Positions 28,952 through 35,571 of a stretch of DNA of 64,000 bases are shown in pieces; within the stretch, counting starts at the first letter, position 1; every line of letters starts with the position of its first letter. The stretch spans positions 1,550,001 to 1,614,000 of the forward strand of contig NZ_AP023181.1 of the NCBI RefSeq assembly GCF_013426915.1. Reading direction: 5' to 3'. This DNA is from Paraburkholderia sp. PGU19. GTDB lineage: Bacteria; Pseudomonadota; Gammaproteobacteria; Burkholderiales; Burkholderiaceae. A program made the position numbers and the translations under genes. The notes below the pieces were generated by a model. The model had not been told where the DNA came from, ran no database searches, and saw nothing but the letters and a program-made list of their open reading frames with translations.

Positions 28952-29130
28952 ATGCGTTCCCGGCGACGAACGCGTGTTCAGAAGAATGAATCTTCGCATG
29001 CCCAATTCCCGGGGACCGCTCCGCCCGCAACACATCCTTTCGTCTGGCTGACAGCATCGAATAATGGCGCGCGTCTTGCTTTTAACTTCCGCGATGCCTG
29101 CACCACGACAGGCACGATACAGGAGGAGAG

Positions 29131-31128
29131 ATGCTCGACGATGCGAAGACAACCGGATCACTGACAGGCCGGGAAAGCGGCTGGCTCACCCCGTCGATCC
29201 AGAAAGCGCACGAGCGGTCGGAAACGTTCGGGCTAAGCGCGGCGATGCGTCCCGACTACGACGTGCTGACGCACGGCGAATTGCGCATGAAGCTCGAACA
29301 GAATCTCGTGCTATGCGCGCACGCCACGCCCGTCATGGAAACGCTGCGCGAGCAGATCGCGAACACGCAAAGCATGATCGTGCTCACCGATGCGCAAGGG
29401 CTGATTCTTCATTCGATCGGCGACGACGATTTTCTGCAGCGCGCCGAGAAAGTCGCGCTCATGCCGGGCGCCAACTGGGCCGAGGAACGGCAAGGCACGA
29501 ATGCGATCGGCACGGCCATCGCCGAGCGCACGGCCACCGTCGTGCACGGCGATCAGCACTATCTCGCCGCTAACCGCTTCCTGACCTGTTCCAGCGTGCC
29601 GATCCTCGACCCGTACGGCGATCTGGTCGGCGTGCTCGACGTGACGGGCGACCATCGCGGCTACCATCAGCACACGATGGCGCTCGCGAAGATGTCCGTG
29701 CAGATGATCGAAAACCATCTGTTCGCGAACACCTTCCGCAACACGCTGCAAATCGCGTTTCATGGCCGGCCCGAGTTTCTGGGCACGTTGATGGAAGGCA
29801 TCATGGCCTTCACGTGTGACGGGCGCTTTCTTTCCGCGAATCGCAGCGCGCAGTTTCAGGTCGGGCTGCCGCTCGCGGCGATGCGCGCGCATACGCTGTC
29901 GTCGCTGTTCGGGCTGACCACGCCGCAACTGATCGACCGCCTGCGGGCGAGCCAGGGCCATCACATTACGCTCGATCTGAACAACGGCACGGTCGTGTGC
30001 GCGAACGTCGAGTTTCGCCGTCCGACGCTCGGCAGCGAGACTTCATGGCCCGCCGACGTTGCCGCGAGCGCGCGGCCCGCCGCTGCGCGCGCGCCGCTGA
30101 CCAAAGCCGCCTCGCCCGCCAATGCGCCGTCGCGGCTCGACTCGCTCGACACCGGCGATCCGCAGATTTGCGCCGTCGTCGCGAAGGTGCGCAAGGTGCT
30201 CGGCAAGGACATCCCCATCCTGATCACGGGCGAGACGGGCACCGGCAAGGAACTGCTCGCCCAGGCCATTCACAACGATTCACCACGGCGCGCGGGCCCA
30301 TTCGTCGCGGTCAATTGCGCATCGATACCCGAAAACCTGATCGAGTCGGAGCTGTTCGGCTACGAAGACGGCGCATTTACGGGCGCGCGGCGCAAAGGCG
30401 CGATCGGCAAACTGCTGCAGGCCAACGGCGGCACGCTGTTTCTCGACGAGATCGGCGACATGCCGTATCCGTTGCAGGTGCGGTTGCTGCGCGTGCTGCA
30501 GGAGCGCGTCGTCGATCCCCTCGGCTCCAGCAAGTCGATTCCCGTCAACATCGCGATCATCTGCGCGACGCACCGCAATCTGCGCGAAATGATCGCGCAG
30601 AACCGGTTCCGCGAGGACCTGTATTACCGTTTGAACGGTCTCGTGGTCAAACTGCCGCCCTTGCGCGAACGCACCGATCTCGCCATCGTCATCGAGCGGA
30701 TGCTGCAATCGGTGCCGTCCGACGAAATGGAAGGCGCGCCGCTCAGCGTCGCGGACGACGTGAAGACGCTGTTCGAGCAATGCGCATGGCCGGGCAATTT
30801 CCGGCAACTCGGCAATCTGCTGCGCACGGCGGCCGCGATGGTCGACGACGACGGGCAAATCCGCCGCGAGCATCTGCCTGACGATTTCTTCGACGATCTG
30901 CGCAGCAGTTCAGCACTCGCGGCGCGCGCGGCAGACTATCCCTTGCCGCTGCACGACGCGCGCATGCAGGACGTGCAGGCCTCCGCGATTGCGGCGGCTG
31001 TCGCGCGGCATAACGGGAACGTCTCGGCGGCGGCGCGCGCGCTCGGCATTTCGCGCAACACGGTGTATCGCAAGATGCCCTCCCTGTGTGCCGCCGATCC
31101 ACGAGACAGCGGCGCGAGCGAGAACTAG
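29131..31128 (+). CDS. Sigma-54-dependent transcriptional activator (AcoR-like)
   Basis: 665 residues. A GAF-type sensor (about residues 60-205, with [20 protein letters not shown]) is followed by a second sensor-like part, the AAA+ domain with Walker A GETGTGKE starting at residue 367 and GAFTGA at 414-419, and a C-terminal Fis-type HTH ([16 protein letters not shown]). Proteins of this AcoR class bind effectors and activate sigma-54 promoters of alcohol or acetoin oxidation genes. It precedes pqqA, pqqD and the alcohol dehydrogenase, in front of which I find -24/-12 promoters (31233-31248, 32478-32493), so it is the likely regulator of that set. Confidence 0.93.
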
Positions 31129-31141
31129 CACGGTCGTCCGC

Positions 31142-31168
31142 TGTTGCAGGCTGTTGATTTTTGCAACA
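31142..31168. promoter_or_regulatory. Candidate upstream activator site, TGTTGCA-N13-TGCAACA
   Basis: Perfect 7-bp inverted arms at 31142-31148 and 31162-31168, 65 bp upstream of the sigma-54 promoter, a usual distance for enhancer binding. A matching TGCAACA occurs at 32384-32390 ahead of the second promoter, with a weaker left arm. Binding by the upstream AcoR-like activator is inferred. Confidence 0.55.
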
Positions 31169-31232
31169 CCTGTGCTCCGAATGTGGACAGCGTGTTCACT
31201 GAGAATCTCTCGCACATCGCGCGAACGCCCTC

Positions 31233-31248
31233 CGGCATGGAGCTTGCA
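31233..31248 (+). promoter_or_regulatory. Sigma-54 (-24/-12) promoter before pqqA
   Basis: CGGCATGGAGCTTGCA matches TGGCACG-N4-TTGCW with GG and GC exactly 12 bp apart; two positions deviate. The predicted start is near 31259, about 50 bases before pqqA. Confidence 0.7.
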
Positions 31249-31309
31249 TTCAACAGCCCCGACCGCAGTTCAACCGCGGTTCTTCGTCAAACCCATCAAG
31301 GAGACAGCC

Positions 31310-31384
31310 ATGCAATGGACTACGCCCGCCTACACGGATCTGCGTTTCGGCTTTGAGATCACGATGTATATCGCCAACCGCTGA
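31310..31384 (+). CDS. pqqA: PQQ precursor peptide PqqA
   Basis: 24-residue peptide with Glu16 and Tyr20 in [10 protein letters not shown], the two side chains crosslinked to build pyrroloquinoline quinone. AAGGAGAC lies just upstream of ATG 31310. It follows a sigma-54 promoter and precedes pqqD. The pqqB, C and E genes are not in this window, so PQQ synthesis must use enzymes encoded elsewhere, with this as an additional or dedicated precursor gene. Confidence 0.93.
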
Positions 31385-31495
31385 CGTTGCGCCGATGCGC
31401 CGCCGCGCGTCGCGTGCGGCGCATCGACTGCCATCACGAACGCCTCAGCCCGCTTCGTGACAGGCGCCCGACACCATTGAACAAGACCTGACGCC

Positions 31496-31777
31496 ATGAT
31501 GCCGATGCCTTCGAACACCGGTGCGAGCGAGCGCCCTAGGCTACGTGATCTTTTCCGACTGCAATGGGAGCCAGTCCAGGACGCGTATGTCCTGCTGTAT
31601 CCGGAAGGCCTGGTGAAACTCAATCCAAGTGCAGGCGAAATTCTCTCGCGCTGCGACGGCACGCGCGATCTCGATGACATCATCGGCGAGCTCGAAGCGC
31701 TCTTCAATGCGTCCGGCCTCGCGAAGGATGTGTATCAGTTCATCGATCATGCGCGGCAACGCGGCTGGCTCGATTGA
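31496..31777 (+). CDS. pqqD: PQQ biosynthesis peptide chaperone PqqD
   Basis: 93 residues. The core RLQWEPVQDAYVLLYPEGLVKLNPSAGEILSRCDGTRDLDDII is the PqqD RRE-like domain that binds PqqA and presents it to the radical SAM enzyme PqqE. It lies 111 bp after pqqA with no B, C or E between, which is unusual: pqqD normally sits inside pqqABCDE or fused to pqqC. Start MMPMPSNTG at 31496; a second ATG follows. Confidence 0.9.
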   Translation: MMPMPSNTGASERPRLRDLFRLQWEPVQDAYVLLYPEGLVKLNPSAGEILSRCDGTRDLDDIIGELEALFNASGLAKDVYQFIDHARQRGWLD

Positions 31778-31816
31778 TATGCGCGCGCATTCACGGATGA
31801 AGCTGAGGGCAGCCTC

Positions 31817-32008
31817 ATGTCCGACCTGATGATGTTTCTGATCGTCGGTGGTGCGCTCGGCGTGCTGGCCTTGCTATCCGTCGCCATGTGGATTCTGATT
31901 CTGCACAAGTCGCACACGGAATGGCGGCTTGCCGCCGACAACAACAGCTTCACGTCGTCGGTCTGGAACGGGACATCCGCGGATACCCCATCACAATCGG
32001 CGCGCTAG
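31817..32008 (+). CDS. Small single-pass membrane protein
   Basis: 63 residues with one long membrane helix (MMFLIVGGALGVLALLSVAMWILIL) and a polar tail. It lies 39 bp after pqqD on the same strand and so is probably part of the pqqA-D transcript. Not recognised; could be a membrane anchor or assembly aid for the dehydrogenase system. Confidence 0.6.
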   Translation: MSDLMMFLIVGGALGVLALLSVAMWILILHKSHTEWRLAADNNSFTSSVWNGTSADTPSQSAR

Positions 32009-32201
32009 CCGGCGGAAACACACGCCACATGCCGTCGCGATGTCGAAAGAAGTGAATCGCGACATCGCCTTCGGGACGATGCACGTGGACACGCACATGA
32101 CAGCGTCGCCCGCTGCTGTCGCATCCGAATCTGGCAAAGCTGACTCTGGACGGCGGCATATGCGCCAGCCATCGCTCGACCATCGCCCGCAAACTGTTCA
32201 T
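31950..32201 (-). CDS. Candidate hypothetical protein (minus strand)
   Basis: 83 codons; the frame is protein-like toward its end (RCHVRVHVHRPEGDVAIHFFRHRDGMWRVFPP), and third codon positions are G/C-rich but less so than in neighbours. ATG 32201 has no strong ribosome site, and the frame extends upstream to 32432 with a GTG. It overlaps the tail of the gene at 31817 by 59 bp, so the call is uncertain. Confidence 0.35.
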   Translation of the reverse strand: MNSLRAMVERWLAHMPPSRVSFARFGCDSSGRRCHVRVHVHRPEGDVAIHFFRHRDGMWRVFPPASAPIVMGYPRMSRSRPTT

Positions 32202-32477
32202 GACTTTGCACCCGCTGTTTGACGATACGACGCAGCGGCACGATACGTCACCGCCGCTCATCGTCGATATGCAGCGTGCGAGAAGCATGCCATCGAGCAC
32301 GCGGCATTCATCGTGAGCAACGTGGACACGACACAGGTGTGCTGTCACATACGGCAACAGGTGAGTTGTCCCTTGCTCCACGATGCAACACGTCGCCTGA
32401 CCCTTCCCGATGCGTGATAGCCAGACGTTCACGCGCTTCGATACGCCCCGCGCCGGTTAGCAAGGATAGCCAATCAA

Positions 32478-32493
32478 TGGCATGCGACTTGCC
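32478..32493 (+). promoter_or_regulatory. Sigma-54 (-24/-12) promoter before the alcohol dehydrogenase
   Basis: TGGCATGCGACTTGCC differs from TGGCACG-N4-TTGC only at the sixth base, with the correct 12-bp GG-to-GC spacing. The predicted start is near 32504, leaving a leader of about 85 bases before ATG 32589. The upstream gap (32202-32477) otherwise shows only a TGCAACA motif at 32384-32390. Confidence 0.72.
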
Positions 32494-32588
32494 TTTACGA
32501 CCGCGAAGCCGCCATGCAAGCCAACGGTGCTTTGCTGACAGGCGTCGCACGATAACTCACCCACAACGATGTTGGATAGGAGACAACG

Positions 32589-34316
32589 ATGAAGACAAGT
32601 CAGGCTTCGGCCACACGGCTCGCGATGCTCGTCGCGGGCGTGGTGGCAGCAATCAGTCTGAGGCCCGCAACGGTAGCCGCCGCGGCCGACTATCCTGCCG
32701 TGACGTACGAACGGCTCACGTCGGCGCAAAGCGATCCAGGCTGGCTCACGTACTACCGGACGTATAACGGCCAGGCGCATTCGCCGCTCAAGCAGATCGA
32801 CACGTCGAACGTGAAGAACCTGAAGCAGACCTGGGCCTACAAGTTTCCTGCGGACCTTCAGCAAGGCTTCGAAGCAACGCCTATCATCAATGGCCGCTAT
32901 CTGTACGTCACGACGCCCAAGGACAACGTCTACGCATTCGATGCCGCCACCGGCAAGCAGTTGTGGAAGTACGAACCAAAGCTCGGCGCGGAAGCCTTCA
33001 AGAACGCGTGCTGTGATGTCGTGAACCGGGGTGTCGCGCTGTACGGCAAGAACGTGTATGTCGCGATGCTCAACGGCGAAGTGGCCGCGCTCGATGCGCA
33101 AACGGGCGCGCTGGTCTGGAAGAAGCAGATGTTCGAGCCGGGCACCGGCTATGCCTTCTCGCTCGCACCGCTGGCGCTCGACGGCTCGCTCGTGGTGGGC
33201 AGCTCGGGCGGCGAGTACGGCGCGCGCGGGTTCATCGCGGCGCTCGATCCCGAGAACGGCAACGTGCAATGGAAGCGCTACACCGTGCCCGGCGCGAAAG
33301 AGCCGGGTGGCAACACATGGCCCGACGGCACGCAGGAACACGGCGGCGCACCCGCATGGCTGACGGGCACATACGATCCCACCAGCAAGACGCTCTATTG
33401 GGGCGTCGGCAATCCGGGACCGTGGCTCGCGGATCTCCGCCCGGGCGACAACCTCTATTCGGACTCGCTGCTCGCGCTCGATCCGAAAACGGGCAACCTC
33501 AAATGGCACTACCAGTACACGCGTCACGACACATGGGATTACGACGGCGTCAACACCCCCGTGCTCGCCAACATCAAGTACGAAGGCAAGGACTATGACG
33601 CGATCATCCATGCCGACCGCAACGGCTTCTTCCATGCAATCGACCGCAGCAACGGCAAGCTGATCTATGCGCGCCCGTTCGTGAAGGCGACCTCCGTCAC
33701 GGGCTACACCGCCGACGGCAAATCCGTGCAGGACGAATCGAAGTATCCGAAAGCGGGAACGACGATCGAAACCTGCCCGAGCTTCCTCGGCGGCAAGAAC
33801 TGGTGGTCGGTTTCCTACGACGCGGACAAGCACATCGCCATCATCCCGGCGCTGCATGCGTGCATGTCGCTGTCCGGCAAGTCGGTGACGTACATGGAGG
33901 GCTTGCCGTACCTCGGCGAAGGCTTCGAGATCAAGCCCGAGCCGGGTAGCCAGGGATACGGCGAGTTGCAGGCCATCGACGTGAATACGGGCAAGAAGCT
34001 GTGGAGCCACTGGAGCAAGCTGCCCTGGAACGGCGGCGTTGCCACCACGGCAGGCGGCCTCGCGTTCAGCGGCTCGCTCGATGGGCATCTCTACGCGTTC
34101 GACGTCACGAGCGGCAAGGTGCTGTGGCAAAGCCCGAAGCTCGCGAGCGGCATCATTGCGCAGCCGTCCGTGTTCGAGATCGACGGCAAAGAATATGTCG
34201 CGGTGCTGGCGGGCTACGGCGGCGCCAATCCGATCTGGGGCGGCCCGATGGCCAAGGCCGCCGATAAGGTGCCGCGCGGCGGAACGCTGTACGTGTTCGC
34301 GCTCAACCACTCGTGA
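32589..34316 (+). CDS. PQQ-dependent alcohol dehydrogenase, predicted lanthanide type
   Basis: 575 residues of the methanol/ethanol quinoprotein family (eight-bladed propeller), with a signal peptide (TRLAMLVAGVVAAISLRPATVAAAA) for the periplasm. The adjacent cysteines C141-C142 (NACCDVV) form the disulfide ring next to PQQ. The catalytic Asp317 lies in HDTWDYDGVN with Asp319 two residues on; in MxaF this second position is Ala and in the family Asp marks rare-earth-dependent enzymes (XoxF/ExaF/PedH). It therefore probably needs La3+/Ce3+-type metals and oxidises methanol or other short alcohols. It follows a sigma-54 promoter and precedes the XoxJ/G-like fusion gene by 19 bp. Confidence 0.92.
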   Translation: MKTSQASATRLAMLVAGVVAAISLRPATVAAAADYPAVTYERLTSAQSDPGWLTYYRTYNGQAHSPLKQIDTSNVKNLKQTWAYKFPADLQQGFEATPIINGRYLYVTTPKDNVYAFDAATGKQLWKYEPKLGAEAFKNACCDVVNRGVALYGKNVYVAMLNGEVAALDAQTGALVWKKQMFEPGTGYAFSLAPLALDGSLVVGSSGGEYGARGFIAALDPENGNVQWKRYTVPGAKEPGGNTWPDGTQEHGGAPAWLTGTYDPTSKTLYWGVGNPGPWLADLRPGDNLYSDSLLALDPKTGNLKWHYQYTRHDTWDYDGVNTPVLANIKYEGKDYDAIIHADRNGFFHAIDRSNGKLIYARPFVKATSVTGYTADGKSVQDESKYPKAGTTIETCPSFLGGKNWWSVSYDADKHIAIIPALHACMSLSGKSVTYMEGLPYLGEGFEIKPEPGSQGYGELQAIDVNTGKKLWSHWSKLPWNGGVATTAGGLAFSGSLDGHLYAFDVTSGKVLWQSPKLASGIIAQPSVFEIDGKEYVAVLAGYGGANPIWGGPMAKAADKVPRGGTLYVFALNHS

Positions 34317-34335
34317 TCTTTCCGGACGTCCAGAC

Positions 34336-35571
34336 ATGAACCATTCTCTCAATCGTATTCCGGCAGCGAGCGTGCTCGCTGCCTGCCTCGCACTCGCGTC
34401 GATTCATTCGATGGCGGCCGTGAAAGTTTGTACGTTTCCCGGCAGTCCCTCGGCGGCGCTGGACGAAGCTGTTGCGCGCGATGCATTTGCGAAGGCAGGC
34501 ATCGCCGCGACGATCGTCAGGCACGGCATCGGTGAAGGCGACGACGACGGCGTCTCGCTTGGTGAGCTCGACAAGACGCTCGCGCGCGACTGCGACGTGA
34601 TCGCGGGTTTCCCGCGCTCGAATGTGGCCGATGCTTCCAGCAGCAAGCTGCAGTTCTCGCGCGGCTACCTGCGCGCGGGCTATGTGAGCATCGAAGCGCC
34701 CGACGCCAATCCGCAAGGCGCGGCGAAGAACACGGTCGCGGCTACATATGCGAGTCCCGCGCAACTGATCGCCGTACAGCAGCCGAGCGTCACGCTCGAT
34801 CTGGAAAACACGTCGGCATTGACTGTCGAAGCCGTGGCGAAGGGACAGGCGCAACGCGCCATCGTCTGGTATCCGGCTGTCGTCGCGTATCGGCTTGCGC
34901 ATCCGCAACGGCACTTCACTGTCTCCGCCGCGCGCTCGCCGTATGCGGACTGGCAACTCGTGTTCGCATTCGGACCGCGCACGGCGGCGCTGCGCGAACG
35001 GATCGATGTGGCGCTCGACAAGCTATCGGGCAGCGGTCGGCTCGCCGGCTTGACGCACGACTGGGCGATGCCCGCGCACGCGCTCGATGCAACCGCGCGC
35101 GACGACGACGCGCGCTTTCGCGACGGCCCTTCTGCATCGCACGCGGCCGGGCAACGTGCGTTGCTGGCGGCGGCGAATGCAGACAGCGCGGGCGGCTTCG
35201 TGAAGATCGCTGCCGACGCGGCTAGCGGAACGCCCGCGTTCGATCAGGCGCAAGCGACACACGGCAAGATGCTCTATTCGGCCGCGTGCGCGAAATGCCA
35301 CGGCGCGCAGTTGCAGGGCGTGACGGCGCCCGCGCTGCAAGGGCCGGCGTTCGCGCCGGCATCGAATGCGCATCTGACGATTGGCGGCGTGTTCACGTAC
35401 ATGTCGACGAACATGCCCGCTGACAAACCAGGCAAGATGAAGGATCAGGATTACGCGGACATCATGGCGTTCCTGCTCTATTCGAATGGTTATCGGGCGA
35501 GCGGAGCAAAAATGACGGCCGACAATGCGCGTGCTCTGGCAACACCGCTCAATGCCGGAGCCGGAAAATGA
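34336..35571 (+). CDS. Fused XoxJ-like binding protein and cytochrome c
   Basis: 411 residues. A signal peptide (ASVLAACLALASIHSMAA) is followed by a periplasmic solute-binding-like domain (about residues 30-250: VKVCTFPGSPSAALDEAVARDAFAKAG), as in MoxJ/XoxJ partners of PQQ dehydrogenases. A linker leads to a cytochrome c domain with CAKCH at residues 318-322 and likely axial Met356 or Met360 (YMSTNMPADKPG). In known systems xoxJ and the electron acceptor cytochrome xoxG are separate genes; here they form one chain. It should take electrons from the dehydrogenase encoded just upstream. Confidence 0.9.
   Translation: MNHSLNRIPAASVLAACLALASIHSMAAVKVCTFPGSPSAALDEAVARDAFAKAGIAATIVRHGIGEGDDDGVSLGELDKTLARDCDVIAGFPRSNVADASSSKLQFSRGYLRAGYVSIEAPDANPQGAAKNTVAATYASPAQLIAVQQPSVTLDLENTSALTVEAVAKGQAQRAIVWYPAVVAYRLAHPQRHFTVSAARSPYADWQLVFAFGPRTAALRERIDVALDKLSGSGRLAGLTHDWAMPAHALDATARDDDARFRDGPSASHAAGQRALLAAANADSAGGFVKIAADAASGTPAFDQAQATHGKMLYSAACAKCHGAQLQGVTAPALQGPAFAPASNAHLTIGGVFTYMSTNMPADKPGKMKDQDYADIMAFLLYSNGYRASGAKMTADNARALATPLNAGAGK

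Follow-up and report, generated by a model that had tools for sequence, protein, structure and literature searches.

Results

An alcohol-oxidation island conserved in Burkholderiaceae

A compact island for alcohol oxidation lies in the 64,000-nucleotide stretch of Paraburkholderia sp. PGU19 analysed here (the window; G000:C3:1550001-1614000, in a genome of 11.2 Mb and 5 contigs). Its six genes, all on the + strand, encode a sigma54 activator, the pyrroloquinoline quinone (PQQ) biosynthesis proteins PqqA and PqqD, a 63-codon open reading frame (ORF), a PQQ-dependent alcohol dehydrogenase (ADH) and a fused substrate-binding protein (SBP)-cytochrome protein, hereafter JG. We consider it probable that they represent a conserved Burkholderiaceae island, in which the activator gene, pqqA-pqqD and the pair of a PedH-like ADH and JG each stand behind a conserved -24/-12 site, the enzyme being predicted to oxidize short-chain alcohols with PQQ and a lanthanide and likely to pass its electrons to the JG heme. 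The window was compared with the best 80 of the 228 loci found in one scan, giving a set of 81 loci from Burkholderia, Paraburkholderia, Caballeronia and one metagenome-assembled genome labelled Ralstonia. The grouping of these genes as one island, put forward in the original prediction, was strongly supported by this comparison. The gene set named there was present, but it proved to be a reduced version of larger islands, with the proposed one-helix membrane protein being a remnant.

Conserved sigma54-type sites upstream of the island genes

A site was called where the weighted -24/-12 score in the 350 bp upstream of a gene reached 12.5 or more out of 14, with mononucleotide shuffles as the background. 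Such sites preceded pqqA in 68/68 loci, the activator gene in 68/73 and the ADH gene in 80/81, and the remaining locus (L024) had a 13.5-scoring site at -375. The operon-internal JG gene, used as a control, was preceded by a site in 1/81 loci, and shuffled upstream regions reached the score in 1.7-2.3% of cases (1.8% for the activator regions). The site-aligned fixed columns showed majority frequencies of 1.00, 1.00 and 0.94, with 0.38-0.55 in the flanks. Three matches were doubtful (pqqA of L049 and the activators of L047 and L042, the last at -16). Within the window itself, 14 sites with at most one mismatch were found versus 9.4 expected, a number reached by 11 of 100 shuffles and not significant; the significance of the sites comes from the comparison across loci, unlike the in-window statistics. 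Sites had been predicted before both transcription units and were found at each, one without mismatch and one with a single mismatch; a third, preceding the activator gene, had been overlooked. The conservation of these sites across the 81 loci strongly supported the sigma54-type control that had been proposed.

The fuller islands of the relatives carried sites upstream of exaC (15/15), the TonB-dependent receptor gene (28/34) and tonB (11/14), and none were detected upstream of exbB (0/15) or pqqE (0/25). An upstream site was present for pqqC in 5/33 cases, and those of pqqB (32/33) and pqqD (32/55) were not counted because the pqqA site falls within 350 bp. The exaC gene of the window genome is located on C1 and scores above the ExaC cut-off; the sequence TGGCACGCTTCTGGCG (score 12.5) precedes the matched stretch by 140 bp.

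A dyad, GGTGTT-N9-AACACC (at most three mismatches), was detected upstream of the site in 64/68 pqqA regions versus 10/68 shuffled ones, in 56/80 ADH regions versus 8 shuffled (38 of the 56 at three mismatches) and in 7/68 activator regions versus 2 shuffled. When eight half-site words were screened at spacings of 0-21, the filter retained GTGTT-N9-AACAC and the shifted form of it, and nothing else.

Reduction of the pqq operon to pqqA and pqqD

PqqA and PqqD, both named in the original prediction, scored above their model cut-offs. The PqqA peptides here have 24 residues and exceed the curated cut-off, and the E-x3-Y motif was intact in 68/68 loci. The full pqq operon was found in 32 of the 81 loci, pqqA-pqqD only in 31, pqqA only in three and no pqq gene in three; the remaining loci were pqqA-pqqC-pqqD (one), split (one) and cut or unknown (ten). 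The gene pqqE was present in 25/81 island loci, including L060, L080 and, in part, L021. The pqqA-pqqD pair is the remainder of a pqqABCDE operon. On a quick ADH tree, the pqqA-pqqD-only label changed seven times, with at least five changes forced by the starred branches. Some islands also held exaC (15 loci), a TonB-dependent receptor gene (34), tonB (14) or exbD (14), and in fuller islands exbB also occurs, within tonB-exbB-exbD; the ExaC of L023 reached 956 bits (cut-off, 900). In L017, pqqABCDE lies directly 5' of the ADH gene and only a partial JG match was found upstream, which is a different arrangement. Two species (L069 and L070) have only the activator, ADH and JG.

The 63-codon ORF matched the N terminus of ExbB with 41% identity over 66 residues in a whole-genome search (E = 1.8e-7) and with 36.7% over 79 residues in a small local search, where the match runs beyond the stop codon. 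It lacked the full MotA/TolQ/ExbB channel domain, gave no Pfam hit and was recognisable over approximately 66-79 N-terminal residues. Its earlier description as a one-helix membrane protein was a misreading; it is a truncated ORF derived from the ExbB N terminus, and a new membrane subunit was rejected. The gaps of the window were also searched for remnants of pqqB, pqqC, tonB, exbD, the receptor, exaC and exbB, with E-values for six short stretches, and only exbB stood out.

The receptor of the fuller islands was tested as a candidate for PqqU and rejected: its score with the PqqU model was 154 bits versus a cut-off of 1200. The PqqU signature given in a passage of PMC12124388 (an aromatic residue at 99, R304 and R365) was found in 0/33 receptors when these distant sequences were aligned with E. 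coli PqqU in a single MAFFT run. According to the same source, PqqU is syntenic with the pqq operon in four genomes of Burkholderiales.

The retained pair could be in decay, a relic of the lost operon that no longer serves a function, comparable to the adjacent ExbB-derived ORF. The reduction of the operon is plain, with L021 caught holding pqqA, pqqC, pqqD and part of pqqE, and the loci with pqqA only or without any pqq gene, as well as other pqqA copies in the genomes, are also in line with such decay. The ratio of nonsynonymous to synonymous substitutions (dN/dS) for PqqD was 0.10, 0.16 and 0.23 in the comparisons with L015, L016 and L019, the last two values pointing the same way. Against this stand the PqqA values of 0.07, 0 and 0.07 and the PqqD value versus L015, the comparison in which the ExbB-derived ORF had 0.28 and the activator, PqqA, PqqD, ADH and JG had 0.04-0.13; versus L016 and L019, the same five genes ranged from 0 to 0.23, with PqqD the highest. 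Moreover, the pqqA site and the E-x3-Y motif are intact throughout, and the same pair was left in 31 loci with three gene arrangements (22, 6 and 3). We regard a functionless leftover as doubtful.

A second set of PQQ biosynthesis genes in a methylotrophy island

Above the cut-offs, the window genome has two copies each of PqqA and PqqD and one of PqqE. The pqqE gene adjoins pqqB, pqqC, pqqD and the formylmethanofuran dehydrogenase and Ftr genes (C3:586-605 kb), although formylmethanofuran dehydrogenase subunit B scored under its cut-off. This methylotrophy island is located about 1 Mb from the window island on the same replicon, and its XoxF-type dehydrogenase is 36% identical to the window ADH and accompanied by a separate cytochrome and XoxJ (TIGR03871, 302 bits). 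No site scoring at least 12.5 was found for the xoxF, pqqB and receptor genes of this second island (best score, 11.5). The second pqqA (G000:C3:581083-581145, L112) is separated from pqqBCDE by about 12 kb and is preceded, at -124, by the -24/-12-like site TGGTACGACAGTTGCA. Next to pqqBCDE, a TonB-dependent receptor gene (L102:12178-14519; G000:C3 ~598.2-600.5 kb) occupies two frames that overlap (230 and 550 aa), indicating that it is broken or contains a sequencing error.

With a threshold of 1e-80, PqqE was searched for in 48 of the genomes that carry the loci. It was found in 27/28 genomes with pqqA-pqqD-only islands (the miss being L043) and in 12/12 full-island genomes, ten of them with a single copy, which must be the island's own since all 12 loci hold pqqE. 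The L069 and L070 genomes yielded no PqqE at this threshold and would need PQQ from outside. One PqqE copy was then taken from each of 32 genomes (27 with pqqA-pqqD only, one with pqqA-pqqC-pqqD, three with pqqA only and one with no pqq gene in the island), and 32/32 lay with fmdA, fmdB, ftr and pqqB-E. No pqqA was detected within 15-19 kb around these copies; it may lie beyond, as in the window genome (about 12 kb from pqqB). The additional PqqE copies of G002, G009, G013 and G042 adjoin pqqA without fmd genes, and that of G046 lies with fmd genes. In 45 rows, methylotrophy-linked pqqBCDE was present in 32/33 reduced versus 1/12 full islands (Fisher's test, 1.4e-8, kinship ignored).

A sigma54 enhancer-binding activator

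The activator carries PF00158 (230 bits), PF02954 (43.7 bits), a GAF domain and a GAFTGA loop. With its AAA+ sigma54-interaction domain, this loop and a Fis-type helix-turn-helix (HTH), it belongs with the sigma54 enhancer-binding proteins. Its dN/dS was 0.12-0.16 versus L015, L016 and L019. It had been called AcoR-like; the GAF/AAA+/Fis build of a sigma54 activator was confirmed, but the likeness to AcoR comes from domain order only. Two paralogues were noted in the window genome, at G000:C2:221641-223557 (54% identity) and, inside the methylotrophy island, at G000:C3:570915-572846 (44%).

AcoR is an activator of GAF/AAA+/Fis build. Activators of such a build include both AcoR and DhaR, and the DhaR model spans residues 61-650 of the protein with a score under its cut-off, so the regulon might respond to acetoin or another signal, with alcohol oxidation as a side task. 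We consider this unlikely, as the sites stand before genes for the oxidation of alcohols and aldehydes, one of which encodes an ExaC above its cut-off, and a passage of PMC6366067 describes BmoR as an alcohol-responsive sigma54 activator.

A PedH-like dehydrogenase with a lanthanide-type signature

The ADH scored above the cut-off of the PQQ methanol/ethanol dehydrogenase family, and D317-Y318-D319 could be read directly, which bears out the earlier description of a PQQ alcohol dehydrogenase with a D-Y-D signature. Among solved structures, the best matches were 6zcw and 6zcv (433 and 431 bits), annotated as quinoprotein ethanol dehydrogenase and which we take to be PedH, followed by 1flg (361), 1kv9 (354), 1kb0 (334), 1yiq (323) and the XoxF 6dam (317). 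Judged by bit scores, PedH is the closest solved enzyme. Lanthanide-type enzymes are marked by a second Asp two residues past the catalytic Asp, together with a Glu, an Asn and a vicinal Cys pair, and the extra Asp, here D319, marks lanthanide use in PedH, ExaF and XoxF. C141-C142, E209, N275, D317, Y318, D319 and R344 were identical in 81/81 loci; among the 120 homologues listed, N275 and D317 were each present in 119 and the remaining residues in 120. The ADH thus carries the residue signature of the PedH/ExaF/XoxF class, and lanthanide use is predicted from this signature and the nearness to PedH. The island falls outside the XoxF systems, as JG is one chain and there are no separate xoxG and xoxJ.

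An ordinary quinoprotein ethanol dehydrogenase system, regulated as described but with Ca2+ (or either metal) in the ADH, is distinctly improbable: the next enzymes after PedH by score are other ethanol dehydrogenases of the family (presumably Ca-type) and the window island showed no recognisable gene for taking up or sensing lanthanides, but D319 is invariant in the loci and present in 120/120 of the homologues listed, PedH aligns there with WDFD and 1flg with WDFS, and the characterised enzymes with the extra Asp are, to our knowledge, lanthanide-dependent.

The fused protein JG

JG is a single chain composed of an SBP-fold domain and a cytochrome c with one heme motif. The original prediction regarded it as a fused XoxJ-G; the single chain was confirmed, but the likeness to XoxJ/MxaJ comes from fold and gene association only, and no match to the XoxJ/MxaJ models TIGR03870 and TIGR03871 was found at 1e-3. 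The SBP part searched alone gave 34 matches, 19 of them with a cytochrome Pfam domain and the others mostly short or partial; an SBP form without the fusion may be represented by P0243 (304 aa, Paraburkholderia bengalensis). The SBP-fold domain also contains a DDDG loop (JG residues 69-72, window 34540-34551) that was invariant in 44/44 relatives. This loop is a possible metal-binding site.

Table 1. Features of the island (window positions)
Feature	Position	Strand	Remarks
sigma54-type -24/-12 site TGGCGCGCGTCTTGC, 5' of activator gene	29065..29079	+	1 mismatch; putative promoter
sigma54 enhancer-binding activator (GAF, AAA+, Fis HTH)	29131..31128	+	AcoR/DhaR-like by domain order
Candidate activator-binding dyad GCTGTTGATTTTTGCAACACC, consensus GGTGTT-N9-AACACC	31150..31170	+	1 mismatch
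sigma54-type -24/-12 site CGGCATGGAGCTTGC, 5' of pqqA	31233..31247	+	1 mismatch
pqqA, PQQ precursor peptide, E-x3-Y motif intact	31310..31384	+	TIGR02107, 47.1 bits, cut-off 20
pqqD, PqqA-binding chaperone	31496..31777	+	TIGR03859, 112 bits, cut-off 46
63-codon truncated ORF from ExbB N terminus	31817..32008	+	Sequence matches to ExbB
sigma54-type -24/-12 site TGGCATGCGACTTGC, 5' of dehydrogenase gene	32478..32492	+	0 mismatches
PedH-like PQQ alcohol dehydrogenase (ADH)	32589..34316	+	TIGR03075, 565 bits, cut-off 480
Fused protein JG: type II SBP-fold domain (residues ~24-247) and one-heme cytochrome c	34336..35571	+	
Heme c binding motif CAKCH, JG residues 318-322	35287..35301	+	

Discussion

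The activator would sense an alcohol or aldehyde, bind the GGTGTT-N9-AACACC dyads and, via RpoN, drive transcription of its own gene, of pqqA-pqqD, of the ADH-JG operon and of the distant exaC. The ADH would then oxidize alcohols in the periplasm and ExaC the resulting aldehyde. XoxJ and MxaJ are thought to dock on the dehydrogenase or to help load it. In JG, the SBP-fold half may similarly dock on the ADH or aid its loading, and the cytochrome half may accept its electrons, so that one chain would do the jobs of separate XoxJ and XoxG. PqqA and PqqD would be raised with alcohol, and PqqB, PqqC and PqqE would be supplied from the methylotrophy island. One PqqA is consumed per PQQ. A passage of PMC12997753 gives PqqA as the precursor peptide and PqqD as the chaperone; the retained genes would therefore be those whose amount could limit flux. 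We infer that alcohol induces pqqA-pqqD and that the pair provides enzymes encoded elsewhere with the peptide they use up and with the chaperone of this peptide, the role of PqqD being the weaker half of this proposal because pqqA-only loci exist and PqqD varies the most. A more far-reaching version, a cofactor supply valve, is put forward tentatively: the two islands may share PQQ enzymes, with alcohol setting the PQQ flux via PqqA and PqqD, and the single-chain XoxJ-G may load and drain the ADH, its DDDG loop perhaps binding a metal.

Several observations weigh against the overall reading of the island. L017, a member of the window's own clade, retains pqqABCDE; the window genome has a second pqqA, and another pqqA-containing operon is present in each of the pqqA-pqqD-only genomes G002, G009 and G013. 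The three pqqA-only loci have also lost pqqD, PqqD is 52-60% identical in the 14 pqqA-pqqD-only loci of the Caballeronia clade, and its dN/dS versus L019 approaches that of the ExbB-derived ORF. When kinship was counted, the association of reduced islands with a second pqqBCDE was left with four independent pairs, three or four of them in the same direction (one draw with one against), and it cannot reach 0.05 with only four such pairs. The window's own ADH site has no dyad at three mismatches or fewer. The structure model of JG is modest (predicted local distance difference test score, 70.7), and amino-acid SBPs match it equally with MxaJ. Finally, a passage of PMC9088363, citing another paper, states that M. 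extorquens needs no PqqA for PQQ.

If the proposal is true, a lanthanide alcohol system would be controlled by sigma54 and a dedicated activator, unlike the described PedS2/PedR2 switch, and XoxJ and XoxG would have a single-chain substitute. The islands would also offer repeated natural cases of PQQ operons reduced to peptide and chaperone, and both the limits of PQQ supply and the function of XoxJ-like proteins would become testable in culturable Paraburkholderia.

The cluster had been considered undescribed, and no description was found in the open-access literature, the body of work that was searched; subscription papers and supplements lie outside it. The insect-associated region of Burkholderia comprises, in a passage of PMC9088363, 38-40 genes with a PQQ ADH, pqqB-E, a sigma54 Fis-family regulator and formylmethanofuran genes; PqqA is described there as unnecessary and as a fragment (about 100 bp). 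By gene content, we identify this region with the methylotrophy island in the window genome (C3:552-605 kb). It is a different locus, and its dehydrogenase, 36% identical to the window ADH in this genome, has a separate cytochrome and XoxJ. BmoR of Thauera butanivorans, likened here by description only, is an alcohol-regulated activator of a sigma54-dependent promoter, but its target is an alkane monooxygenase promoter (passage of PMC6366067). In Methylorubrum extorquens AM1, exaF is similarly flanked by PedG-like and PedF-like genes; however, the SBP and cytochrome genes are separate, and the passage concerned (PMC12997753) mentions no pqqA-pqqD or sigma54 activator. The ped cluster of Pseudomonas putida, as presented in part of PMC12997753, resembles the island in its PQQ ADHs, including the lanthanide-type PedH, and in the periplasmic cytochrome c PedF, the periplasmic SBP PedG, the aldehyde dehydrogenase PedI, which resembles ExaC, and a pqqD-II gene. 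It differs in that PedF and PedG are separate proteins, pqqA lies elsewhere, and the regulators are PedS2/PedR2 and AgmR, with the sigma54-dependent response regulator CbrB encoded outside the cluster.

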